From Azospirillaceae bacterium (GTDB taxonomy: Bacteria; Pseudomonadota; Alphaproteobacteria; Azospirillales; Azospirillaceae): a stretch of 64,000 nt of DNA. Shown here piece after piece: positions 29,802 through 58,002 of the stretch. The stretch's first letter is position 1. Every line of letters starts with the position of its first letter. Location: contig JARLIO010000031.1 in NCBI GenBank assembly GCA_031291675.1, positions 1-64,000 of the forward strand, read 5' to 3'. The notes under the pieces are model-generated. The model made no database searches, was not told the origin of the DNA, and worked only from the letters and a program-made list of their open reading frames with translations. A program made the translations under genes and the position numbers.

Positions 29802-30977
29802 TCACGAATAGAAGTCCGGCTGCGGCACCGTACCGTTGAGCGCCCAGGCCCCGAGCTCCTTCAGCTTGTAGTCGACGGGATCGTGGAGCGAGTGGGTGCG
29901 AAGGTTGCGCCAGAAACGGTCCAGACCATAGCGCGCGCCGGTGGCCCGGGCGCCGGTGACGTCGAACAGCCGGTTGGTGGCGTCGAGCCCGGCCCGGGTC
30001 GCCGCGACCTTGGCGGTGGCAATCGCGACCGCGACCTGACCCCGTTCTGCCGGGCTCAGCTCATCACGCTTCTCCCAGGCCGCCTGGAGCCGCGCTGTCG
30101 CCTGATCGCCCAGGGCCGCCGCGCCCGCGAGCCCGACATGCAACTCGCCATAGTGATGCAGGACATAAGGATCCTCGGCCGCCGCGGTGACGCCAGAACT
30201 CCGCCATGGCCGCGCTGAACCGAGCGTGAATTCGCGCGCGGCGGCCAGCGCGCCCTCGCCGATGCCCAGATAGATCGCGGCGAGGATTGCCTGGGCGATC
30301 AGCGGCCGCAGGGTGCACGCGACCCCGCCAAAAGGACCGGGCGGTCCCAGGATCTCGTCGTGGTCCACCGGGACGCCGGAAAATGTGACGGTGCCGCTGT
30401 CGGTCTGACGCTGCCCCATATTGTCCCAGTCATCGAGTATCGCAACGCCCGGTCGCCGGGTGGGGATCACGAAGACACGGAGCCGTCCGTCGGGATCGTC
30501 GGCCGAGACCAGCAGCATGTCGGAATCCGAAGCGCCCGAGCAGAAACTTTTGGTGCCGTCGAGTGTCCAGCCCTGAGGGGCCGGGGTCAGCGTCGTCCGG
30601 CGGTCAAGCGGGTTGAGTGCGTTACCCCAGAACAGCGGCTTTCGGACCGTCTCGGTCAGCAGCGCGTCGCGCTGCGCGGCCGAACCGTAGAGCAGGACCG
30701 AGGCGACCATCAGATGCTGGAAGGCGAACAGATGGGCCAGCGAGGAATCGACCTGCGCCAGCGCGCGTACCGCACCAAGGATTGCCGGCCAGGTTTCGCC
30801 GGCGCCGCCGAAGCCGGGAGGAACCGCGAGCGTCAGCAGGCCGGACCGCCGGATCGCGTCGCGTTCGGTCTTGGCGGTGCCGCCGGCACGGTCGCGTTCC
30901 ACGGCCGTGGCGGCGAGAAGATGTTTCAGCTCCGCAAGTGCCGCGCGGTGGGTCGGATCGGATAGGGTGACTGTCAT
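29802..30977 (-). CDS. Acyl-CoA-dehydrogenase-fold flavin monooxygenase (DszC/SfnB/MsuC type)
   Basis: 391 residues with the acyl-CoA dehydrogenase fold. It ends with DRFWRNLRTHSLHDPVDYKLKELGAWALNG, a segment shared with sulfur-acting group D monooxygenases (DszC, SfnB, MsuC) rather than true acyl-CoA dehydrogenases. Such enzymes use reduced FMN from a partner reductase and O2 to oxidise sulfur compounds. An SsuE/MsuE-type reductase is encoded at 34410. It follows the amidohydrolase-like gene by 81 bp in the same direction, so it is probably in the sigma-54-controlled leftward transcript. Methanesulfinate oxidation (MsuC role) is one possibility. Confidence 0.8.
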   Translation of the reverse strand: MTVTLSDPTHRAALAELKHLLAATAVERDRAGGTAKTERDAIRRSGLLTLAVPPGFGGAGETWPAILGAVRALAQVDSSLAHLFAFQHLMVASVLLYGSAAQRDALLTETVRKPLFWGNALNPLDRRTTLTPAPQGWTLDGTKSFCSGASDSDMLLVSADDPDGRLRVFVIPTRRPGVAILDDWDNMGQRQTDSGTVTFSGVPVDHDEILGPPGPFGGVACTLRPLIAQAILAAIYLGIGEGALAAAREFTLGSARPWRSSGVTAAAEDPYVLHHYGELHVGLAGAAALGDQATARLQAAWEKRDELSPAERGQVAVAIATAKVAATRAGLDATNRLFDVTGARATGARYGLDRFWRNLRTHSLHDPVDYKLKELGAWALNGTVPQPDFYS

Positions 30978-31058
30978 TAGAACGCGCTCCGCGTCGGTTG
31001 CAGGTTGCCGAAGGCCACCCCGGGCCGGTTTGGTGGCCAGACCCCGAGGATGTCGCTC

Positions 31059-31913
31059 CTAAAGGTCGAGCCCCAGCAGGCGGCGGGCGTTGTCGAAGAA
31101 CAGCCGGTCCAGCACGGTCTCGGCAAAGCCGAGCGCCCGATAGTCGTCGACGGTCTGTCGCATCGCGCGGAAAGGATAGGAACTGCCGAACAGGATCTGG
31201 TCGGCCAGCGCGCCGTTGGCCGCCTCGACATAGAGCCGGCCGCCGGGCTGGAAGATGTACATGTCGGGGATGATGTGGACGTTGGGATGACGGAAGGCGA
31301 TCCCGATGATCGCCGCGGCGTTGGGCCAGAAGCCGTGATGACAGACGATGTTCAATTTGGGGAAGGCTGCGGCGATCCGCGCGACCGGCGCCGGGTCGTT
31401 GAAGCGGGGATCGGGCGTGGTTGGCCCGCTCATCAGGAACACCGGCACCTTGAGCTGGTCGCATCGCGCGTAGATCGGCAGCAGCAGCGGATCGTCGAAG
31501 GGGATCGCCGGGTCGAGGAACCCGGGTTCGACATTGATGCCCTTGAGCCCCAGCCGGACGATCGCCCGTTCGATTTCAGCGATCGCGGCGGCAAGACCCT
31601 GGCGTTGCGGATCGACCGAGCCGACACCGATCAGCGATGGGCGGCCGGTCACCAGCGCGTGCACCTGGTCGTTTGAGGTGGCGACGGCCGGCGTGTCGCG
31701 GCCGATGATCGCGGCCGCCAGGATGCCGGCCTCAGAAATCTCGGTGAGATAGTCCTCCAACCGGAGAGAGCGGGTGAAATGCTCGGGATCGCGCGAGCCG
31801 ACCCGCCGGTTGAGCCACACCGCTCCGTCATAGGCCGGGGTTCCCGGTGTGGCACCATAGAAATCGTGGAGGAAGGCCGGGCGGCTGCGCAGATCGATAA
31901 TTTTACGAGACAC
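31059..31913 (-). CDS. Amidohydrolase-like (ACMSD/Amidohydro_2 fold) protein with degenerate metal motifs
   Basis: 284 residues from a GTG at 31913 (GGGAG about 10 bases upstream). The TIM-barrel layout of Amidohydro_2 is clear: KIIDLRSRPAFLHDFYG, GLKGINVEPGFLDP, LNIVCHHGFWPNAAAIIG, and ILFGSSYPFR near the end. In active relatives the first strand carries HxH and the last GSDYP. Here these read RSR and GSSYP, so the HxH pair and the catalytic aspartate are missing. It may bind metal differently or not be hydrolytic. A -24/-12 promoter lies 54 bp upstream. No specific substrate can be given. Confidence 0.7.
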   Translation of the reverse strand: MSRKIIDLRSRPAFLHDFYGATPGTPAYDGAVWLNRRVGSRDPEHFTRSLRLEDYLTEISEAGILAAAIIGRDTPAVATSNDQVHALVTGRPSLIGVGSVDPQRQGLAAAIAEIERAIVRLGLKGINVEPGFLDPAIPFDDPLLLPIYARCDQLKVPVFLMSGPTTPDPRFNDPAPVARIAAAFPKLNIVCHHGFWPNAAAIIGIAFRHPNVHIIPDMYIFQPGGRLYVEAANGALADQILFGSSYPFRAMRQTVDDYRALGFAETVLDRLFFDNARRLLGLDL

Positions 31914-31966: not shown

Positions 31967-31981
31967 GCAAATCCGGTGCCA
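31967..31981 (-). promoter_or_regulatory. Sigma-54 (-24/-12) promoter for the amidohydrolase-like/monooxygenase operon
   Basis: On the minus strand the sequence is TGGCACCGGATTTGC, matching TGGCAC-N5-TTGC. The predicted start is near 31955, giving a leader of about 42 bases to the GTG at 31913. It lies between the sigma-54 activator gene and its leftward neighbours. Confidence 0.8.
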
Positions 31982-32093: not shown

Positions 32094-34118
32094 TCAGGCG
32101 CGGGCCCACACGGCATCCTCGACGCGGATGCTGGCGCGCAGCAGGCCGAGGCCGTGGAAGCTGTCGGCGACGGCCTGCTGCTGACGCACGGCGTCGTCGT
32201 CGAGGGGCCTGGCACCGTAGGTCAGCCGGCTGAACGCGAGCTCCAGCGCGTCGGTGCCGATCCCCAGCGCCCCGCTCATCGTCCGGGCGGCCTCCGCTCC
32301 GTGGCGCGCCGCATATTCGCCGGCCTTGCTCAACTCGTCGAGCAGGATGAGGATCGCCTCGGGATTGCGCTCAGCGAATGGCGGTGTCGTCAGGTAGAAC
32401 TGATGGTTGGGAACCAGACCGTTGCCATCGGTCAGGACCCGGGTGTCGCCCCGGAGCTGCGCCGAGGACAGCAGGGGGTCCCAGATCGCCCAGCCGTCGA
32501 TGGTGCCCTCCAGCAGCGCCTCCAGCGCCTCGGGTGGTCGCATGTGAATGGCGCGAATGTCGTCGAGCGACAGGCCCTGGGCCTGCAACGCCCGCAGCAG
32601 GAAGTAATGGACGTTGGACCCGGTGTGCAATGCCACCTTGCAGCCCCGCAGGTCGGCGGTGCTCCAGAACGGGCTGTTGCGGCGGACCATCAGGGCCTCG
32701 GCGCCGGGAGCGGGCGGATCGAAGCCGACATAGAGCAGCGGAACGCCGGCAGCCTGGGCAAACACCGGCGGCGTCTCGCCGGTCGCGACGAAGGCGACGC
32801 GGCTGTTCTCCAACGCGTCCATCAGTTGCGGCCCGGACACGAACTCCGTCCAGGTGACGCGATAGCGGTGCTCGGCCAGTCTTTGTTCGACGGCGCCCCG
32901 CATCTTGAGGATCGCGGAGGTGCCGTATTTCTGATAGCCGATCGGCAAATCGATGGTTGTTCGCGCGGCACGGCCGGCCGGCACGGCCCGGCGCCGCGGC
33001 GGGATCGTGCCGAGATGGGCGAGCTGGGTCCGGAAGGCGTTGCGGGTCATGCCCAGGCTGTCGGCCGCCTTGATCTGGTTGCCGGCGACCAGATCAAAGG
33101 CGGTGCGGATTGCGGTGCGGACCAGTCGCTCATGGATGTCGGGCTCGCCGGCCGCGACCGCGCGCTCAATCAGCTCGCGAACGCCGCTCTCCAGATCCGT
33201 GCGACGGGACTCCTCAGCCATGGCCGAACCCTGCCCGTGGCAGCGCAGGCGAACCTCGTCAGGACCGATCACCGGGCCGGCCGCCAGCAGCACCGCATTG
33301 TGGATGAGGTTCTCCAGTTGGCGGATGTTGCCGGGCCAGGGGCACCGGGTCATCTGGCGGAGCGCCTCGACCCCCAAGGTCAAGTCCGGTCGGCCGAGCC
33401 GCTCCCGGTAGATCGCCAGGAAATGCCCGGCCAGTGTCGCGATGTCACCGGGCCGCTCGCGGAGTGGCAGCAGCCGGACCGAGGCGACGTTGAGGCGGAA
33501 ATACAGATCCTCACGAAAGCGCCGGGCCCGGACTGCCGCTTCCAGATCGACATTGGTCGCGGCGATGACCCGGACATCGACCGGGATCGGTTTGCGGGAC
33601 CCGACCCGGACCACCTCGCGTTCCTGCAACACCCGCAACAGCTTGACCTGAAGCGCCGGCGGCATGTCGCCGATCTCATCCAGCAGCAGGGTTCCGTTAT
33701 TGGCGGCCTCGAACCAACCGGCCTGGGTCTTGAGCGCGCCGGTGAAGGCACCCTTCTCGAAGCCGAACAGTTCGGCCTCGGCCAGGGTATCGCTGAACGC
33801 ACCGCAGTTGACCGCCACGAAGGGCCCCGAGGCCCGCCGGCTGTTGGCGTGCATGTAGCGGGACACCAGCTCCTTGCCGGTCCCGGTCTCGCCGATCACC
33901 AGCACCGTGGTATCGCTGGGGGCGATCCGGTCGAGCTCGGTCCGCAGGCGCTGTGAGGCCGGATCCTCGAAGACCATGGCGCTGGCGCGCTCCGGCGTTG
34001 TGTGTCCGCGCCGCGCCTCGGGCGGAAGGGCAACAATCTGCGGCTGGTCGAAACCGGCGGGCCGGATGCCTGGTGCGGGGGCCTCAGAGGGCTGGCCGGA
34101 AAGCGTGGTCCTGATCAT
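32094..34118 (-). CDS. Sigma-54-dependent activator fused to an SsuA-like sulfonate-binding domain
   Basis: 674 residues from the ATG at 34118 (a TTG at 34157 is an alternative). It has no N-terminal receiver. The AAA+ domain is complete: Walker A GETGTGKE (76-83), GAFTGA (123-128), Walker B LLLDEIGD (144-151) and the [10 protein letters not shown] region (261-270). A Fis-type HTH follows (about 330-370, [16 protein letters not shown]). From about 385 to 672 the sequence is that of the periplasmic aliphatic-sulfonate-binding protein SsuA ([65 protein letters not shown]), with no signal peptide. It should be a cytoplasmic one-component sensor in which the binding domain reports sulfonate or sulfate-ester presence. 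Both flanking transcripts start at -24/-12 promoters. Confidence 0.88.
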
Positions 34119-34248
34119 GGCGGCACCGTCGGATGATGAGGCTCCTCGATCCAACAATCTTGGTCCGAAATTTGGTCATCATACAACACAATAATTCATG
34201 GCAATCTATTTATAATAACGTAGCGGGTTGGTCGCGATGGCGGTTTCG

Positions 34249-34354: not shown

Positions 34355-34369
34355 TGGCACGGCGCTTGC
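34355..34369 (+). promoter_or_regulatory. Sigma-54 (-24/-12) promoter for the FMN reductase-sfnG operon
   Basis: TGGCACGGCGCTTGC, a near-perfect match to TGGCACG-N4-TTGC. The start point should be near 34381, with a leader of about 29 bases to the ATG at 34410. The divergent sigma-54 activator gene is next door. Confidence 0.88.
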
Positions 34370-34409
34370 GATGTCGATCTGAATTGTGATCAACCGGAGC
34401 CCGTGTAAA

Positions 34410-34976
34410 ATGAGCGCCCTCAAGCTCACCGCCCTTTCCGGCAACCTCAAGGGGCCGTCCCGGACCCATTCGCTGGTCGCCGCGGTGGTCGCCGCGATTG
34501 CCGAGCGCATCCCCGTCGACCGGACTGACATCGTGGTCGGCGATCTCGCCCCGGAACTGGGGGGCTTGGTCGATCCCGCCCACATACCACCCCGGGTCCA
34601 GGCGGCGATCGACGCCATCGTCGGCGCCGATCTGCTGGTCGTCGGCTCCCCGGTCTACAAGGGATCCTACACCGGCCTTTTCAAGCATCTGATCGATTTC
34701 ATCGATCCCAACGCGCTGATCGGTCTGCCGGTGGTGCTGACCGCGACCGGCGGCAGCCTGCGCCACGCTCTGGTGATCGAACATCAACTCCGCCCGCTGT
34801 TCGGCTTTTTTCTGGCGCAGACCGTACCGACGGGCGTGTTCGCGCTCGACAGCGATTTCACGGCCTACCAGCTGACCAGCCCGGACATTCAAAGCCGCGT
34901 CCACACGACCGCCGAGGAGGCGGTGCGGATCGCAGTCCCCGGTCGCGCCCGGCGCGCGACCGCCGTCGCCGCCTGA
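34410..34976 (+). CDS. NADPH-dependent FMN reductase (SsuE/MsuE family)
   Basis: 188 residues with a flavodoxin-like fold. LTALSGNLKGPSRTHSL is the phosphate-binding start, and VVGSPVYKGSYTGLFKHLIDFID is the SsuE/MsuE signature around the flavin. It supplies FMNH2 to two-component monooxygenases such as SfnG, encoded 26 bp downstream. The start ATG has CGGAG upstream and follows the sigma-54 promoter. Confidence 0.9.
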   Translation: MSALKLTALSGNLKGPSRTHSLVAAVVAAIAERIPVDRTDIVVGDLAPELGGLVDPAHIPPRVQAAIDAIVGADLLVVGSPVYKGSYTGLFKHLIDFIDPNALIGLPVVLTATGGSLRHALVIEHQLRPLFGFFLAQTVPTGVFALDSDFTAYQLTSPDIQSRVHTTAEEAVRIAVPGRARRATAVAA

Positions 34977-35002: not shown

Positions 35003-36100
35003 ATGACCAACGCTCCGCTTCCCGTCAAGTTCGCCTACTGGGTTCCCAACGTGTCCGGCGGCCTCGTGATTTCAAAGATCGAGCAGCGGACCCATTGGGA
35101 TATCGACTATAACCGGCAGTTGGCCCGGATCGCCGAGAAGGCCGGGTTCGAGTATGCGCTGAGCCAGATCCGCTTCACGGCCGGTTACGGTGCCGACAAC
35201 CAGCATGAATCGGTGGCCTTCACCCATGCCCTGCTGGCCGCGACCGAGACGCTCAACGTCATCGCCGCGGTCCTGCCGGGGCCTTGGCACCCGGCGCTGC
35301 TGGCCAAGCAGGTCGCGACCATCAGCCACCTGACCAAAGGCCGGATCGCGGTCAACGTCGTCAGCGGTTGGTTCCGGGGCGAGTTCCACGCCATCGGCGA
35401 GCCCTGGCTCGATCACGACGAGCGTTACCGCCGGTCGGAGGAGTTCATTCGGGTCATCCGCGGGATCTGGACCGAGGATGCCTTCTCGTTCAACGGCGAC
35501 TTCTATCGCTTCCACGACTACAGCCTGAAGCCGAAGCCGCTGCAACCGCTGCCGGAGATCTTCCAGGGCGGCAGCTCGCGGGCGGCCCGCGACATGGCCG
35601 CCCGGGTGTCCGATTGGTACTTCACCAATGGCAACACCCCGGACGGGGTCAAGGCGCAGATCGACGATATCCGCGCCAAGGAGGCCGGCACGGGCCACCA
35701 TGCCAGGATCGGTGTCAACGCCTTTGCGATCGTCCGCGAAACCGAGGCGGAAGCCCGCGCGGTCCTGGCGGAGATCCTGGCGAAGGCCGATCCCGAAGCC
35801 GTCCGGGGTTTCCACCACGAGGTCCAGAACGCCGGCAATGCCTCGCCGGAGCGCGAGGGCAACTGGGCAAAATCGTCCTTTGAGGATCTGGTCCAGTATA
35901 ATGATGGTTTCCGGACCAACCTGATCGGCACCCCGCGTCAGGTCGCCGAGCGGATCGTCGCTTTGAAGGGGATCGGCGTCGATCTGGTGCTGCTGGGCTT
36001 CCTGCACTTTCAGGAGGAGGTGGAGTATTTCGGCAAGCAGGTGATCCCCTTGGTCCGCGAACTGGAGGAAGCCGCCGCCAACACTGCCAGGGCGGCTTGA
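35003..36100 (+). CDS. sfnG: FMNH2-dependent dimethyl sulfone monooxygenase
   Basis: 365 residues of the bacterial-luciferase-like family. The N-terminal VKFAYWVPNVSGGLVISKIEQRTHWDIDYNRQLA and later ARDMAARVSDWYFTNGN and FEDLVQYNDGFRTNLIGTPRQ match SfnG closely along the whole length. SfnG oxidises dimethyl sulfone to methanesulfinate and formaldehyde using FMNH2. It is the second gene of the sigma-54-controlled operon. A sulfonate monooxygenase (SsuD/MsuD) for the final desulfonation is not in the window. Confidence 0.9.
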   Translation: MTNAPLPVKFAYWVPNVSGGLVISKIEQRTHWDIDYNRQLARIAEKAGFEYALSQIRFTAGYGADNQHESVAFTHALLAATETLNVIAAVLPGPWHPALLAKQVATISHLTKGRIAVNVVSGWFRGEFHAIGEPWLDHDERYRRSEEFIRVIRGIWTEDAFSFNGDFYRFHDYSLKPKPLQPLPEIFQGGSSRAARDMAARVSDWYFTNGNTPDGVKAQIDDIRAKEAGTGHHARIGVNAFAIVRETEAEARAVLAEILAKADPEAVRGFHHEVQNAGNASPEREGNWAKSSFEDLVQYNDGFRTNLIGTPRQVAERIVALKGIGVDLVLLGFLHFQEEVEYFGKQVIPLVRELEEAAANTARAA

Positions 36101-36184: not shown

Positions 36185-37009
36185 ATGTCCGCCACCCTTG
36201 TCGTTGCCGCCGTAGAGGATCGGGCTGCGCTCGCCATCGAATCCCTGTCGCTGTCGTTCGGCGGTGTCATGGCGCTGAGCGGCATCGACCTGACGGTCGC
36301 GCCCGGTGAGATCCGGGCCGTGATCGGCCCGAACGGTGCCGGCAAGAGCTCGCTGATCAATGTTGTCAGCGGTCTCTACCGGCCCGATCACGGCCGCGTC
36401 TGGCTCGGTGGGCGGAGCTTCGCGGCGGTGCCGACCGACCGGCTGGCCGCTCTTGGCGTCGCCCGCACGTTCCAGAATCTGGCCCTGTTCAAGGGGTTGT
36501 CGGTGCTGGATAACGTCGCCGTCGGCCTTAACCACGGTTTCCGGGCCGGGGTTTTCGCCCAGATCGCGGGGCTCCCCGGCGCCCGCCGCGAACGCGCCGC
36601 GGCGCAGGAACGGGCTGCGGCGGTGCTGGATTTCTTCCATCTCACCGACATGCGCGACCGGCTGGTCGGGACGTTGTCCTATGGCGTCCAGAAGCGGGTC
36701 GAATTGGCCCGCGCGGTGGTCGCGCGACCGCGCCTGTTGTTGCTCGATGAGCCGATGGCCGGGATGACGCTGACCGAGAAGCGCGAACTGACCGGCTTCA
36801 TCCGCGCCATTCGCGATGAGCTCCAGGCGACCATCGTGCTGATCGAACATGATATCGGGGTCGTGATGGGCCTGTCCGACCGGGTGGCGGTCCTCGACTA
36901 CGGCCGGCTGATCGGCGACGGCACACCCGAGGCGATCCGTGCCAATCAGGCGGTCATTGACGCCTATCTCGGCGTTGCCCACGACCTGGAAGCCGGGGAG
37001 GGGATCTGA
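36185..37009 (+). CDS. Branched-chain-amino-acid-type ABC ATPase (LivG-like)
   Basis: 274 residues with Walker A GPNGAGKSS, signature LSYGVQKRVELARA and Walker B LLLLDEPMAGM. It has the extended insert seen in LivG (PGARRERAAAQERAAAVLDFF). It forms, with the next four genes, a complete HAAT-family importer. The location behind sfnG suggests an organosulfur ligand rather than an amino acid. Confidence 0.9.
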   Translation: MSATLVVAAVEDRAALAIESLSLSFGGVMALSGIDLTVAPGEIRAVIGPNGAGKSSLINVVSGLYRPDHGRVWLGGRSFAAVPTDRLAALGVARTFQNLALFKGLSVLDNVAVGLNHGFRAGVFAQIAGLPGARRERAAAQERAAAVLDFFHLTDMRDRLVGTLSYGVQKRVELARAVVARPRLLLLDEPMAGMTLTEKRELTGFIRAIRDELQATIVLIEHDIGVVMGLSDRVAVLDYGRLIGDGTPEAIRANQAVIDAYLGVAHDLEAGEGI

Positions 37010-37012
37010 GGC

Positions 37013-37900
37013 ATGGATCTGTCCTTCTTCACCGAAGTGCTGGTGGGCGGCCTGTTGTCAGGTGTGATGTACTCGCTGGTCGCGATCGGCTTTGTGCTGA
37101 TCTACAAGACCTCGGGCGTGCTGAATTTCGCGCAGGGTTCGCTGCTGCTGTTCTCGGCGCTGACCTTCGTCAGCCTGATCGAGCGGGGGCTGCCGTTCTG
37201 GGCCGGCATCCTGATCACGCTGGCGGCGATGACCGCGATCGGCGCGCTGATCGAGCGTGTGGTGCTGCGCCCGCTGGTCAACCAGCCGCCGATCACCCTG
37301 TTCATGGCGACGCTGGGCGTCTCCTACGTGATCGAGGGCGCGGCCCAGCTGCTGTGGGGCACCCAGGTTCACGGCCTCGACCTTGGCATCGACGACAGGC
37401 CGCTGGAGATCAGCGGCGTGTTCGTCAGCACCTTTGACCTGTTCGCGGCGGGTGTCGCCGGGGCGATGGTGGCGGTGCTGATCCTGTTCTTCCGCTACAC
37501 CGGCATCGGCCTGGGTTTCCGGGCGGTTGCCGATGATCCGCTGGCGGCGCTGTCGCTGGGCTTGCGTCTCGACCGCATCGGAACCGCGGTGTGGACCGCC
37601 GCCGGCATGGTGGCGCTGGTCGCCGGGCTGTTGTGGGGTGCCCGGCTCGGCGTGCAGTTCTCGCTGTCCCTGGTGGTGCTGAAAGCGTTGCCAGTGCTGG
37701 TGCTCGGCGGTTTCGATTCGATCGCCGGGGCGATCGTCGGCGGGCTGATCATCGGTGCGGTCGAGAAGCTGGCCGAGGTCTATATCGGCCCGTTCTTTGG
37801 GGGTGGCATCGAGGGCTGGATCGCCTATGTCGCGGCGCTGGGGTTCCTGTTGGTACGGCCGGCCGGGCTGTTCGGCCAGAAGCTGGTGGAGAGGGTCTGA
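37013..37900 (+). CDS. Branched-chain-amino-acid-type ABC permease (LivH-like)
   Basis: 295 residues. Starts FTEVLVGGLLSGVMYSLVAIGFVLIYKTSGVLNFAQGSLL, a hallmark of LivH, and has eight or so TM segments. It starts 3 bp after the LivG stop. Confidence 0.92.
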   Translation: MDLSFFTEVLVGGLLSGVMYSLVAIGFVLIYKTSGVLNFAQGSLLLFSALTFVSLIERGLPFWAGILITLAAMTAIGALIERVVLRPLVNQPPITLFMATLGVSYVIEGAAQLLWGTQVHGLDLGIDDRPLEISGVFVSTFDLFAAGVAGAMVAVLILFFRYTGIGLGFRAVADDPLAALSLGLRLDRIGTAVWTAAGMVALVAGLLWGARLGVQFSLSLVVLKALPVLVLGGFDSIAGAIVGGLIIGAVEKLAEVYIGPFFGGGIEGWIAYVAALGFLLVRPAGLFGQKLVERV

Positions 37901-37905
37901 CGGGC

Positions 37906-38973
37906 ATGAGCGACATCGCGATCAAGACGGGCCGTCGGTCGCTTCCGGGTCTGTCTCCCCAGGCGTTCGGCGTTGCGGCCTTGCTGGCCATTGCCTTCGG
38001 TGTCGTGCCGCTGGTCGGCAGCGAGTATCTGTTCGACGCCCTGCTGACGCCGTTCCTGGTGCTGTCGCTGGCCGGGCTTGGGCTCAACCTGCTGACCGGA
38101 TATACCGGGCAGGTGTCGCTGGGCTCTTCGGCATTCATGGCGGTCGGGGCCTACGCGGCCTGCAATCTCGCGTTCCGGCTGCCGGGGCTGCCGTTCCTGG
38201 TCGATCTGGTGGCGGCCGGCGTGATCGCGGCGGCGGTCGGACTGGTCTTCGGGCTGCCGAGCCTGCGCCTGCGCGGCTTTTATCTCGCGGTCTCGACGCT
38301 CGCCGCCCAGTTCTTCGTGCAGTGGGTGTTCAACAAGATCGGCTGGTTCTCCAACGACAGCGCGTCCGGCATCGTCACCCCGCCGCCGCTGTCGATCGCC
38401 GGAATTGCCGTGACCAGTCCGGTCGGCCGCTATCTGTTCACGCTGTCGGTGGTCGTCGCGGTGACGGCGCTGGTGTGGCGCCTGGTCCGCTCGCCCACCG
38501 GATCGGCTCTGATCGCGGTGCGTGACCACGAGACCGCGGCGCGGGTGATTGGCATCCCGGTGCTGCGGACCAAGCTGCTGGCCTTTGCGGTTTCGTCTTT
38601 CGTGATCGGCATCGCCGGCGTGCTATGGGCCTTCGCCTATCTGCGCAATGTCGAACCAGCGGGCTTCAATCTCGACCGTTCGTTCCAGATTCTGTTCATC
38701 GTCATCATCGGCGGCCTTGCCTCGCTCCGGGGCGCGTTCCTGGGCGCTGCGCTGATCGTCATCTTCCCGCTGGGACTGGCCCGCCTCGGCGACGCGTTGC
38801 TGGGCGGTCTGTTCGACAGCGGCGTGCTGGAGATGAGCCAGCGCGTCGTTCTGGGTCTGCTGATCATCGTCTTCCTGATCGCCGAGCCGGCCGGGCTTTC
38901 GGCCCTGGTCGACCGGATGACCCGCCGGATCACCCCCTGGATCACCCCCTGGATCACCGCCGGCCGCGCCTGA
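37906..38973 (+). CDS. Branched-chain-amino-acid-type ABC permease (LivM-like)
   Basis: 355 residues from the ATG at 37906, five bases after the LivH stop. It has LLTGYTGQVSLGSSAFMAVGAYAA and the cytoplasmic loop VRDHETAARVIGIPVLRTK of LivM. The C-terminal tail contains a short tandem repeat, ITPWITPWITAG, encoded by a repeated 15-bp unit. Confidence 0.92.
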   Translation: MSDIAIKTGRRSLPGLSPQAFGVAALLAIAFGVVPLVGSEYLFDALLTPFLVLSLAGLGLNLLTGYTGQVSLGSSAFMAVGAYAACNLAFRLPGLPFLVDLVAAGVIAAAVGLVFGLPSLRLRGFYLAVSTLAAQFFVQWVFNKIGWFSNDSASGIVTPPPLSIAGIAVTSPVGRYLFTLSVVVAVTALVWRLVRSPTGSALIAVRDHETAARVIGIPVLRTKLLAFAVSSFVIGIAGVLWAFAYLRNVEPAGFNLDRSFQILFIVIIGGLASLRGAFLGAALIVIFPLGLARLGDALLGGLFDSGVLEMSQRVVLGLLIIVFLIAEPAGLSALVDRMTRRITPWITPWITAGRA

Positions 38974-39030
38974 AAATGCGGCCCGTTCCCCGGGCCATCC
39001 CTGCCTTTCAAGTCAACGGAGACAAGCTCG

Positions 39031-40368
39031 ATGTCGCTTCCGAATATCCTCAGACGTGCCTTTTTCGGCGCGGTTCTCGGCTCCCTGGCGCTGCTGCCGG
39101 CCGTCGCTGCCCCGGCTGACGAGCAGTATTTCCCGCTGCAGAGCTACCGCGTCGGCCCCTACGCCGCCGGTGGCACCGGCTTCTTCGGCGGGTTCATCGA
39201 CTATCTCAACCTGATCGACATCCGCGACGGTGGCGTCAACGGGGTCAAGCTGACGTGGGACGAGTGCGAGACCCAATACGAGGTCGAGCGCGGCGTCGAG
39301 TGCTACAAGCGGCAGAAGAGCCACGCTGGTATTGCCGCCTGGAATCCGCTGTCCGTTGGCATCGCCTATGCGATGATAGACGACGTCACCGCGGACAAGG
39401 CACCGTTGATCACAATCAACCATGGCCGCACGGATTCGACCGATGGCCGGGTGTTCAAATATGTCTTCCCGCTGCTGCTCAATCCCTACAGCGAGACCTC
39501 CGGCATCGTGAATTACATCGCGGCCAGGGAGGGCGGACAGGACAAGCTCAAGGGCAAGAAGCTGGTGGTGCTCTATCACGGCTCGCCCTACGGCAAGGAG
39601 ACGATTCCCATCTACCAGCTTCTGGCCGAGAAGTACGGCTTCTCGCTGGAGCAGATCGAGGTGCCGCATCCCGGCAACGAGCAGCAGTCGCAGTGGCTGA
39701 CCATCCGCCGCGCCAAGCCTGACTATGTGATCCTGCGTGGCTGGGGGGTGATGAACCCGGTTGCCCTCAAGACCGCCCAGAAGGTCGGTTTCCCGGTGGA
39801 TCACATCATCGGCAATGTCTGGTCCAATTCCGAGGAGGACGTGATCCCGGCCGGCGACGCCGCCAAGGGCTACACCGCGATCACCACCCAGGCCTCGGGC
39901 GCCGAGTACCCGGTGCTCCAGGAGATCGTCAAGACGGTCTATGGCGCTGGCAAGGGTAATCTGGAGGACAAGAAGAGAATTGGCTCCGTCTATCACAACC
40001 TCGGCATCGTCAACGGCATTCTCAATGTCGAGGCGGTGCGGATCGCCCAGGAGAAATTTGGCCACCGGACGCTTACCGGCGACGAGGTGCGCTGGGGTTT
40101 TGAGCATTTGAAGCTTGATCCGGCGCGGGTCGAGGCTCTCGGCGCCAAGGGCCTGTTCCATTCGATCAATGTCAGCCTCGCCAACCACGAGGGCGAAGGG
40201 CGCGTCACGTTTCAGCAATGGGACGGCGCCAAATGGAAGGTTGTCTCCGACTGGATCGCGCCGGATTGGGCGCTGCTGCGGCCGATCATCGAGAAATCGT
40301 CGCTTGCCTACGCCAAAGAACACAGCCTCCCGGTTCGCGATCCGGCCGTTGAAGAGGCGACCAACTGA
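39031..40368 (+). CDS. ABC substrate-binding protein (Peripla_BP_6 type)
   Basis: 445 residues with a signal peptide (FFGAVLGSLALLPAVAAPADE, probable cleavage after AVA/AAP). The body is the amide/branched-chain type binding fold (GLKLTWDECETQYEVERGVECYKRQK-like segment at about 70-95, which belongs to a subgroup longer than LivJ). It captures the ligand for the LivFGHM-like importer. The ligand is unknown; sulfones, sulfonates or sulfate esters are the contextual guess. Confidence 0.85.
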   Translation: MSLPNILRRAFFGAVLGSLALLPAVAAPADEQYFPLQSYRVGPYAAGGTGFFGGFIDYLNLIDIRDGGVNGVKLTWDECETQYEVERGVECYKRQKSHAGIAAWNPLSVGIAYAMIDDVTADKAPLITINHGRTDSTDGRVFKYVFPLLLNPYSETSGIVNYIAAREGGQDKLKGKKLVVLYHGSPYGKETIPIYQLLAEKYGFSLEQIEVPHPGNEQQSQWLTIRRAKPDYVILRGWGVMNPVALKTAQKVGFPVDHIIGNVWSNSEEDVIPAGDAAKGYTAITTQASGAEYPVLQEIVKTVYGAGKGNLEDKKRIGSVYHNLGIVNGILNVEAVRIAQEKFGHRTLTGDEVRWGFEHLKLDPARVEALGAKGLFHSINVSLANHEGEGRVTFQQWDGAKWKVVSDWIAPDWALLRPIIEKSSLAYAKEHSLPVRDPAVEEATN

Positions 40369-40388
40369 CCTGCCCGGAGGGAGCCGCC

Positions 40389-41165
40389 ATGACGATCCGT
40401 GAAATCCTGCTGTCCCTGGACGGGGTGGAGGCCACCTACAACCACGCAATCCGGGCCCTGTCGGGCGTCCATCTGACGGTGCGGACCGGGGAAATTGTGG
40501 CACTCCTGGGGGCCAATGGCGCCGGAAAGACGACGACGCTGAAAGCGCTGTCGGCCCTGTTGGGCGCGGAACGGGGGCAGGTGACCGGCGGATCGATCAC
40601 CTATGACGGATCCGATGCCGTCCGCCGGTGGCCGTACGAACTGGTCCGTCAGGGGCTGGTCCAGGTGCTGGAAGGGCGGCATTGCTTTCGCTCGCTGACG
40701 GTCGAAGACAATCTGGTCGTCGGCGGGCTCGCCCGGCGGCGATCGCGAACTGAACATCGTCGCGATCTTGACCAGATCTACGCGCTGTTTCCGCGGCTGC
40801 GCGACAAGCGGCGCACGCTCGCGGGCCTGGCCTCCGGCGGTGAACAGCAGATGACGGCGATCGGCCGGGCCCTGATGGCCGGTCCCCGGCTGCTGGTGCT
40901 CGATGAACCGTCGATGGGGCTGGCCCCGTTGCTCGTCGAGGCGATCTTCGATGCCCTCAAGGCTCTTAACCGGGAGGAGGGGCTATCGATCCTGGTCGCC
41001 GAGCAGAACTCGGCCGTGGCGCTCCGTCACGCCGACCGCGCGGTGGTGCTGGAAAATGGCCGAACCGTGCTCGAAGGAACGGCGGCCGAACTGCGGGAGC
41101 GGGACGACATCAAAGCATTCTATCTCGGCTTCGGTGTCGTCGATGGTGCCGCCCGTTCGCACTGA
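40389..41165 (+). CDS. Branched-chain-amino-acid-type ABC ATPase (LivF-like)
   Basis: 258 residues with Walker A GANGAGKTT, signature ASGGEQQMTAIGRAL and Walker B LLVLDEPSMGLAP. It is the second ATPase of the importer and lies 20 bp after the binding-protein gene. Confidence 0.92.
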   Translation: MTIREILLSLDGVEATYNHAIRALSGVHLTVRTGEIVALLGANGAGKTTTLKALSALLGAERGQVTGGSITYDGSDAVRRWPYELVRQGLVQVLEGRHCFRSLTVEDNLVVGGLARRRSRTEHRRDLDQIYALFPRLRDKRRTLAGLASGGEQQMTAIGRALMAGPRLLVLDEPSMGLAPLLVEAIFDALKALNREEGLSILVAEQNSAVALRHADRAVVLENGRTVLEGTAAELRERDDIKAFYLGFGVVDGAARSH

Positions 41166-41197: not shown

Positions 41198-42451
41198 ATG
41201 AGCATGAGTCTGGCCCTGGTTACCGACCAAATCGCGCCGCAGGGCGTGCCTGGTCTGCCGCGTCCGGCGAGCCCGGCCGCGATCATCGCAAACGATGCCG
41301 AGGCGATTGCCGCCGCCCAGGCGCTGGCCCAGGCGGTCGCGCCGACCGCCGCGGCGCGCGACCGCGAACGTCGGCTGCCGATCGCTGAACTCGACGCCTT
41401 CTCGCAGAGCGGGCTGTGGTCGATCAATGTGCCGAAAGCTTTCGGTGGGCCGGAACTGTCCTACGCGACGGTGGCCAAGGTGGTACAGATCGTCTCCGCC
41501 GCCGACCCCTCGCTGGCGCAGATCTCACAAAACCATCTGGGCGTGATCGCCGCCATTCGCACCGTCTCGGACGAGGCCCAGCAGCGGCTGCTGTTCGGCG
41601 AGGTGCTGAAGGGCGTGCGCTTTGGCAACGCCTTTTCCGAGTTTGGCACCAAGCGTGCGGCGGAATTCGCGACCCGCTTCACCGACGCGGGTGACGCCGT
41701 GATCGTGACCGGCCGCAAATTCTATTCGACCGGCGCGCTGTTGGCCCATCTGGTGCCGATCGTCGCCGTCGATGACCAGAACCGTGCCTGGTACGCCATC
41801 GCCGAGCGCGACGCCGAAGGGCTGAGCGTGATCGACGACTGGTCGGGCTTCGGCCAGCGCACCACCGCCAGCGGCACCGTGATTCTCAATAATGTAAAGG
41901 TGCCGAAGAGCCATCTGGTGCCGGGCTACAAGGGCTATGACAAGCCGACGGCGGATGGCGCCATCTTTCAGATCATCCAGGTCGCGGTGGATGTTGGCAT
42001 CGCCGAGGCGGCGATCCACGACACCATTTCCTTCGTCCGGAATCACAGCCGGCCCTGGGTCGATGCCGGGGTCGACCGCGCATCCGACGATCCCTACACA
42101 ATCCAGGCCGTCGGGCGGCTTACTCTCCGGCTGCACGCCGCCGAGGCGTTGCAGGACAAGGCCGGTCTCGCGGTTGACGCGGCCGTCGCCAAACCCGATG
42201 CCGACACCGTCGCCAAAGCCCAGATCGCGGTCGCTGAGGCCAAGATCCTCAGCACCGAGATCGCGATCGAGGCGACCAACACCCTGTTCGAGCTGGCTGG
42301 CACCCGCTCGGTGCTGGCCGAACACGGGTTCGACCGGCATTGGCGCAACGCCCGCGTCCATACCCTGCACGACCCGGTACGCTGGAAATACGCGATTGTC
42401 GGCAATCATGCCCTCAACGGCGTCAACCCACCGCTGCACGCCTGGAGCTGA
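41198..42451 (+). CDS. sfnB: SfnB-family acyl-CoA-dehydrogenase-fold sulfur oxidase
   Basis: 417 residues with the SfnB layout: an extended N-terminus, ELDAFSQSGLWSINVPKAFGGPELSY, GFGQRTTASGTVILNNVKVP, and a C-terminal DRHWRNARVHTLHDPVRWK. SfnB is linked to dimethyl sulfone or methanesulfinate use in Pseudomonas. It is the last gene of the rightward sulfur operon, 32 bp after the LivF-like ATPase. It shares its C-terminal motif with the product of 29802-30977, so the island carries two members of the family, one at each end. Confidence 0.85.
   Translation: MSMSLALVTDQIAPQGVPGLPRPASPAAIIANDAEAIAAAQALAQAVAPTAAARDRERRLPIAELDAFSQSGLWSINVPKAFGGPELSYATVAKVVQIVSAADPSLAQISQNHLGVIAAIRTVSDEAQQRLLFGEVLKGVRFGNAFSEFGTKRAAEFATRFTDAGDAVIVTGRKFYSTGALLAHLVPIVAVDDQNRAWYAIAERDAEGLSVIDDWSGFGQRTTASGTVILNNVKVPKSHLVPGYKGYDKPTADGAIFQIIQVAVDVGIAEAAIHDTISFVRNHSRPWVDAGVDRASDDPYTIQAVGRLTLRLHAAEALQDKAGLAVDAAVAKPDADTVAKAQIAVAEAKILSTEIAIEATNTLFELAGTRSVLAEHGFDRHWRNARVHTLHDPVRWKYAIVGNHALNGVNPPLHAWS

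Positions 42452-56731: not shown

Positions 56732-58002
<1,271 letters not shown>

Follow-up and report, generated by a model that had tools for sequence, protein, structure and literature searches.

What does an amidohydrolase-like protein do in a gene cluster for dimethyl sulfone use when the residues by which its family binds metal are missing? The question is raised by a gene, here called AmiH, in a 64-kb stretch of Azospirillaceae DNA, the whole of which is referred to as the window. An earlier note had placed this gene under sigma-54 control and had stated that dimethyl sulfone use includes no known step for which a hydrolase of this kind is required; it suggested that the gene might encode a new reaction or a metal-free enzyme in sulfur metabolism. 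The absence of such a step fits two pathway papers, whose accessible parts contain neither the word hydrolase nor amidohydrolase. A summary of the locus is given in Table 1.

Table 1. AmiH, selected codons and neighbouring features in the window.
Feature	Position	Strand	Basis
MsuC-like methanesulfinate monooxygenase, downstream of AmiH	29802..30977	-	Best solved relative 6u76, E 4.6e-122
AmiH, amidohydrolase-like, 284 aa, RxR replacing HxH	31059..31913	-	ORF; PF04909; closest solved relative 3irs, E 6.7e-40; AF2 pLDDT 95.2
S245 codon, strand-8 metal Asp position (GSSYP)	31179..31181	-	Aligned to Asp of 2dvt, 3s4t, 4inf, 4icm
H193 codon, retained strand-6 His	31335..31337	-	Aligned to His of 4qs5, 4inf, 4icm; invariant
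M161 codon, strand-5 metal His position	31431..31433	-	Aligned to 3s4t, 4qs5; invariant 47/47
R9-S10-R11 codons (RxR, end of strand 1)	31881..31889	-	R9, R11 invariant: 47/47 clade, 51/51 wider alignment
Sigma-54 (-24/-12) box of AmiH transcript, TGGCACCGGATTTGC	31967..31981	-	Exact consensus; kept in 10/10 Azospirillaceae loci
Sigma-54 activator with C-terminal SsuA-like (sulfonate-binding) domain	32094..34157	-	Pfam, NCBIfam; same fusion beside AmiH in Methylocystis
Sigma-54 box of divergent sfn transcript	34355..34369	+	Exact consensus
FMN reductase (MsuE-like)	34386..34976	+	PF03358; msuE in Azospirillum sp. B510
SfnG dimethyl sulfone monooxygenase	35003..36100	+	TIGR04021, 620.8 bits, cut-off 382.95
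Branched-chain-type ABC importer (LivG, LivH, LivM-like, binding protein, LivF-like)	36185..41165	+	Family search
Acyl-CoA-dehydrogenase-family protein	41198..42451	+	PF08028/PF02771

Predicted fold and metal-site positions of AmiH

The ORF starts with GTG and is preceded by AAGGGAG, which resembles a ribosome-binding site. Its sole Pfam match is PF04909 (Amidohydro_2), with 86.2 bits against a curated cut-off of 26.4. The luciferase-like flavin barrel of the SsuD/MsuD type (PF00296) is absent, and no NCBIfam model matched at E 0.001. As the PF04909 match begins only at profile position 56, the first strand falls outside of it. This strand reads IIDLRSRP, and the motif of the last strand is GSSYP. 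The AF2 model, built from an alignment of 51 sequences, is very confident (pTM 0.93). Its best structural match is BB4693 (3irs; Foldseek E 2.9e-21; VIA Z 37.5, rmsd 1.8, 271 residues aligned), followed by CAC3332 (3cjp, Z 25.2) and then by dihydroxybenzoate, gamma-resorcylate-type and carboxyvanillate decarboxylases together with ACMSD (Z about 22-24).

HxH, the strand-5 His and the strand-8 Asp, which we take to be metal ligands of the Amidohydro_2 family, are all replaced in AmiH, and only the strand-6 His is retained (H193). R9 corresponds to the first His of HxH in a relative from the same genome; for R11 that alignment has a gap, and its partner was assigned from the motif D-x-H-x-H. M161 takes the place of the strand-5 His in the profile alignments, and position 245 is Ser in 46 of 47 clade members (see below) and Asp in none. 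The earlier description of an Amidohydro_2 protein with RSR instead of HxH and with GSSYP is hence borne out by the ORF, the family match and the alignments. Moreover, the sequence and profile alignments place no other His or Asp at the metal positions of the relatives, where a re-formed canonical site was looked for. Judged by sequence, AmiH is a protein that has lost four metal ligands.

R9, R11, R72 and H193 are invariant throughout the clade and in the wider alignment (47/47 and 51/51 rows). H45 is found in all 47 clade rows, D217 in 46, and position 129 is Glu in 42 and Asp in 5. Invariant positions are enriched at the catalytic mouth of the barrel (16/32) compared to the opposite mouth (4/32; 30 orthologues, Fisher p 0.0025), with the mouth ranges taken from predicted strand ends and that of strand 8 set by eye. 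This conservation and the invariant residues argue for a working site and against decay. A sequencing error or a one-off mutated or decayed amidohydrolase is ruled out, since RxR and other residues of the barrel mouth are kept in 47 rows.

RxR reaches beyond this clade. It is present in 18 of 22 more distant loci, absent from three (L109, L111, L112) and was not determined in one (L118), and the solved BB4693 carries it as well. AmiH belongs to this BB4693-like RxR group (hmmsearch E 1.4e-103). Two genomes of one family (G577, G656) each gave at least seven AmiH-family matches at E 1e-25, with seven candidates scored in each, and RxR is found in 5/5 of their aligned rows. Some of these copies (L094-L096) stand in tandem, and TctC receptors adjoin those in L095. 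Neighbours sampled in the sister group (10 proteins from G577, G656, L097, L098 and L100) comprise TctC receptors, hydroxyisobutyrate-type dehydrogenases, fumarase subunits, a LysR regulator and a TauD-family enzyme. RxR in a broad sister group and in BB4693 therefore indicates an old change. The loss of HxH is thus real but not peculiar to sulfur metabolism; a sulfur-specific origin is ruled out by the carboxylate-type contexts sampled in the sister group. RxR may serve as an anion clamp in general.

Genomic context and regulation

A maximum likelihood tree of 71 rows separates 47 sulfonate-type rows from the others by a branch with support 100/99; it was midpoint-rooted for drawing, and some outer branches are long and unsure. 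The window protein lies inside this clade, nested in Azospirillaceae. Clade members share 48% to 78% identity with it and span Alpha-, Beta- and Gammaproteobacteria and Campylobacterota. A strict RPAFLHDFYG-type motif had initially defined the clade by 46 loci, i.e. 44 unique ones after removal of two copies (L107 of L006, L128 of L104). It was dropped in favour of the tree, which added six members missed by the motif (L123-L127, L129). The 47 tree rows and three loci with a broken or cut gene (L027, L028 and L029) make up the resulting 50, among which near relatives were all retained. In Methylovulum miyakonense (L027:8001-8848) the AmiH gene is broken in frame, and the locus has open sfnG- and msuC-type genes.

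An oxygenase of the SsuD/MsuD, SfnG, TauD or methanesulfonate-monooxygenase-like Rieske type is encoded in the cluster in 46 of the 50 loci. Forty-four of these were recorded within 8.1 kb by bit-score cut-offs (39/44 unique loci and 5/6 added ones). The other two, L087 and L010, have a Rieske oxygenase truncated where the fetched stretch ends, the L010 contig being assigned by number and coordinates. The same cut-offs gave 0/22 for the more distant relatives, a comparison that favours the clade, as the cut-offs were set after inspection of the data and the reference proteins came partly from clade loci, and whose control is imperfect, several loci being cut short (e.g. L094, L096, L099, L101, L114). 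Control loci L097-L099 have TauD-family neighbours below the cut-off (65-121 bits; PF02668 for L098). Sulfonate/nitrate-type ABC-importer genes occur in L096, L102 and L113, of which only the L096 permease passed. The orthologues are hence not confined to unrelated operons but cluster with sulfur genes, a check the earlier note had called for.

Among the 44 unique loci SsuD is found in 29, SfnG in 14, the MsuC/DszC type in 14, the Rieske type in 7 and TauD in 5. With SfnG within reach in so few, a gene peculiar to dimethyl sulfone use is ruled out. The short Azospirillaceae loci L030-L041 have an SsuD-type gene adjoining AmiH in 12/12 cases, where the label rests on a weak SfnG match, the family match of L003 and the place of the gene. 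TauD is accompanied by an SsuA-type importer in L009 and L014. Further neighbours that handle sulfite are SoxC (L085) and TauE/SafE (L010, L087, L124). At least three switches of the partner between SsuD, Rieske type and TauD are required on the tree (42 rows, labelled by us). AmiH thus appears to follow a chemistry rather than one oxygenase.

No such oxygenase was found in four of the 50 loci (L018, L022, L028, L127). L018 and L022 are Methylibium MAGs without such a Rieske gene. L022 has a transporter gene and only 2.7 kb of upstream sequence; L018 has nitrilase-like and haloacid-dehalogenase-type neighbours and no sulfur gene by the labels used. The L028 contig ends just past AmiH, with sfn-type Liv and acyl-CoA-dehydrogenase genes present. 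SsuD was not found at 1e-60 in the genomes or records of L009, L014, L018, L022, L028 and L127, a search run with no positive control. A survey of 145 relatives gave 13 genomes with AmiH (E below 1e-140), all of them among the 25 with SsuD (1e-80); this is no independent statistic, because 12 of the 13 belong to one genus (g11). Twelve of the 25 SsuD genomes are without AmiH. Taken together, AmiH and its orthologues form a single clade linked to sulfur metabolism.

SsuD is missing from the cluster in the window, which encodes SfnG and the MsuC-like protein; the genome has two SsuD genes at other places. At 30978-31058 the SsuD gene that adjoins AmiH in other Azospirillaceae loci is absent. Azospirillum sp. 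B510 has the sigma-54 activator/SsuA fusion and AmiH-SsuD-acyl-CoA-dehydrogenase type (MsuC-like), divergent from msuE-sfnG-Liv transporter; its AmiH protein is WP_012977059.1. LivG, LivH and the binding protein of the importer were labelled by family search, LivM and LivF by position and the B510 annotation. DMSO2 transporters are described as yet to be characterised in the part of PMC8234197 available. Hence the importer is a candidate DMSO2 transporter, as it adjoins sfnG in the same order as in B510.

Other lineages combine AmiH with other modules. Ferriphaselus and an Aliarcobacter plasmid (Campylobacterota) show ssuA-ssuD-ssuC-ssuB-AmiH. Methylocystis plasmids carry SfnG divergent from AmiH-SsuD-acyl-CoA-dehydrogenase type-RibA/B-MsuE. 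Two genomes (G382, G850), whose rows lie near Burkholderiales and Thiobacillus in the tree, encode on one strand a Rieske oxygenase, an NTF2-type beta subunit, a reductase, a Rieske/cNMP protein (ferredoxin), a sulfonate-type ABC importer (binding protein-permease-ATPase-permease-ATPase) and AmiH. A similar same-strand run occurs in six further loci, in which the oxygenase is truncated at the end of the locus. The Rieske spacer of these Burkholderiales-type operons has 17 residues where measured (2/2, G382 and G850). M. nodulans shows msmABCD-like genes, TauE/SafE, a molybdopterin oxidoreductase and cytochrome c divergent from MFS-AmiH, and its alpha subunit has a 26-residue spacer. According to the part of PMC4433239 seen, a spacer of 26 residues distinguishes methanesulfonate monooxygenase, the long spacer is present in every organism with proven growth on methanesulfonate, and short-spacer proteins of Methylibium and others are annotated as MsmA. 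The same source (Table 1 therein) lists no amidohydrolase in the 20.3-kb msm segment of the methanesulfonate user Filomicrobium strain Y. This segment and the SsuD genomes without AmiH indicate that the AmiH step is not obligatory and at most accessory in many hosts.

A plasmid of Methylobacterium bullatum (L127:3292-8676) has MFS-AmiH-SorA-cytochrome c-YeiH type, and neither such a Rieske oxygenase nor SsuD was found on it. SorA, a sulfite dehydrogenase (score 676, cut-off 600), lies ~35 nt downstream of AmiH, which is WP_339164193.1 in this species. No candidate for sulfur release other than AmiH is apparent between the importer and the sulfite dehydrogenase. The cluster might represent a stand-alone route for an imported hydroxysulfonate.

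Three exact matches to the sigma-54 consensus are present in the window, two of them in Table 1. The third box-like match (TGGCACTGTTGTTGC) is found at 57708-57722 (-). The box of AmiH lies 54 nt upstream of the gene. All 10 unique Azospirillaceae loci, the window included, show TGGCA[CT]N5TTGC ending 38-54 nt before the AmiH start codon, compared to 1 in 20,000 mononucleotide-shuffled upstream stretches of 100 nt. Each has a further box on the opposite strand, 2.4-3.8 kb upstream of AmiH. In other lineages, 28 clade loci scanned over the 4 kb before and the 1 kb after the start of the gene yielded no such box, and three Methylocystis loci yielded none either. Hence the predicted sigma-54 control belongs to Azospirillaceae and not to the clade. 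A box precedes AmiH and an activator is encoded close by, so that the proposed sigma-54 control is well in line with the sequence. The SsuA-like domain covers residues 402-685 of the activator in the window and 375-660 in Methylocystis (L126:2372-4357(+)). The window protein has no clear membrane segment (highest 19-residue hydropathy 1.09). The fusion is possibly a cytoplasmic sulfonate-sensing activator that travels with AmiH. Its B510 copy is annotated by NCBI as a substrate-binding protein.

Proposed reaction and its alternatives

The SsuD/MsuD, TauD and Rieske methanesulfonate monooxygenase types of oxygenase have in common that they hydroxylate the sulfonate-bearing carbon; for MsuD this is described in PMC8234197. 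Since the partners of AmiH share this step, cleavage of an alpha-hydroxysulfonate is the simplest common reaction. We tentatively propose, with less than even confidence, that AmiH is a metal-independent lyase which converts alpha-hydroxyalkanesulfonates such as hydroxymethanesulfonate (HMS) to aldehyde and sulfite. The substrate would be the immediate product of the oxygenase or an adduct re-formed from free aldehyde and sulfite. R9, R11 and R72 would hold the sulfonate where relatives hold the metal. H193, aided by D217 and E129, would take the proton of the hydroxyl group, whereupon sulfite leaves. Substrate, reaction and the role of each residue are inferred here, and the fold is a model.

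A figure legend in PMC8234197 (MsuD scheme) indicates that hydroxymethanesulfonic acid may give sulfite and aldehyde without enzyme. The accessible part of PMC6459274 reports a dissociation constant of ~2e-4 M and a break-up of ~43 per second at high pH. As the reaction is fast at high pH, a proton-taking base such as H193 would speed it near neutral pH. HMS is also reported in aerosol in the parts of PMC9227704 and PMC11250035 available. No paper on an HMS enzyme was apparent by title among the matches listed in the open-licence literature. Several points count against the lyase. HMS also breaks up by itself. The 17-residue spacers are short compared to the long ones of proven methanesulfonate growers. 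R9 and R11 are common to relatives in carboxylate contexts and may bind anions generally. Finally, four of 50 loci show no oxygenase and the Filomicrobium msm segment shows no amidohydrolase.

AmiH could also act in the same pathways on another organosulfur anion, e.g. a sulfinate (desulfinase-like, in analogy to the decarboxylases that share its fold) or an activated sulfonate. Among characterised proteins the closest in fold are decarboxylases, which expel CO2 from an anion, and the window cluster encodes both the producer of methanesulfinate (SfnG) and the enzyme that oxidises it (MsuC). However, methanesulfinate is then already handled by MsuC in that operon, and the Rieske or TauD loci make no sulfinate as far as the known chemistry goes. 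We regard this as an unlikely though plausible variant.

The loss of all four metal ligands would also suit a catalytically dead protein that binds the sulfonate or the partner oxygenase as carrier, scaffold or stability factor. AmiH indeed abuts or overlaps the SsuD ORF in 20 of the 44 unique loci (within 200 nt, same strand). Such a role is improbable given that R9, R11, R72 and H193 never vary in the clade, that the partner oxygenase does, and that none was found near the M. bullatum gene.

It is improbable as well that AmiH uses the carbon product, be it an aldehyde, formaldehyde or a conjugate, instead of a sulfur compound. Several hosts belong to presumably methylotrophic genera, and formate dehydrogenase genes lie near AmiH in L124 and L142. 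Against this, the M. bullatum cluster combines AmiH with sulfite genes and has no C1 gene among the 15 features listed, and the Aliarcobacter ssu operon has none among 20.

AmiH might still be a metal enzyme with a site rebuilt from H193, D217, E129, H45 or other conserved residues, whose conservation is given above. This is rather improbable, as the classical ligand positions are occupied by Arg, Arg, Met and Ser and the two Arg would be expected to repel a cation. That the gene is a mere passenger of sulfur loci, for which the 12 of 25 SsuD-bearing relatives without AmiH could be cited, is very improbable in view of its linkage to changing partners across four classes or phyla and the strong conservation of the protein.

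The lyase reading can be widened. AmiH would then found a new family of metal-free C-S lyases with amidohydrolase fold, acting on aldehyde-bisulfite adducts after alpha-hydroxylating oxygenases, with a stand-alone route in Methylobacterium by which leaf bacteria use atmospheric HMS for sulfite and formaldehyde. We consider this version doubtful. If the lyase reading itself is right, it would add a step to the use of methanesulfonate, alkanesulfonates and dimethyl sulfone that, in the parts of the literature seen, has until now been left to spontaneous decay. It would account for how cells could keep formaldehyde and sulfite from being trapped as a stable adduct, and would present an amidohydrolase barrel that works with an arginine clamp instead of a metal. 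Moreover, part of a large family annotated only as amidohydrolase family protein would gain a function, and microbial use of atmospheric HMS would become testable.

Comparison with known systems

A description of the AmiH clade was not found in the open-licence literature, including the accessible parts of PMC8234197, PMC13352529, PMC11852219, PMC9227704, PMC6459274 and PMC4433239. The closest solved protein, BB4693 of Bordetella bronchiseptica (PDB 3irs, 3k4w), is uncharacterised; no publication on it, nor on 3IRS as an amidohydrolase, was found in the same literature. It shares with AmiH the whole-length fold, RxR, the Met at the strand-5 site and the strand-6 His. In contrast, the two proteins are only 32% identical, the alignment of BB4693 lacks FLHDFYG, W33 and N35 of the clade, and BB4693 lies outside the tree sampling.

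ACMSD and the gamma-resorcylate and 5-carboxyvanillate decarboxylases have the same barrel and the strand-6 His. They differ by HxH, the strand-5 His and the strand-8 Asp, presumably metal ligands, where AmiH has R, R, M and S. The sulfite lyases SuyAB, Xsc, CuyA and IslA would share with AmiH the outcome, i.e. C-S cleavage with release of sulfite. These enzymes have other folds and cofactors, whereas AmiH matches only PF04909. AmiH is encoded in or beside clusters for the known routes via SfnG-MsuC-MsuD/SsuD and MsmABCD. As far as the accessible parts of their descriptions go, the methanesulfonate routes list no hydrolase or lyase after the oxygenase, and AmiH would be an extra enzyme at this point.
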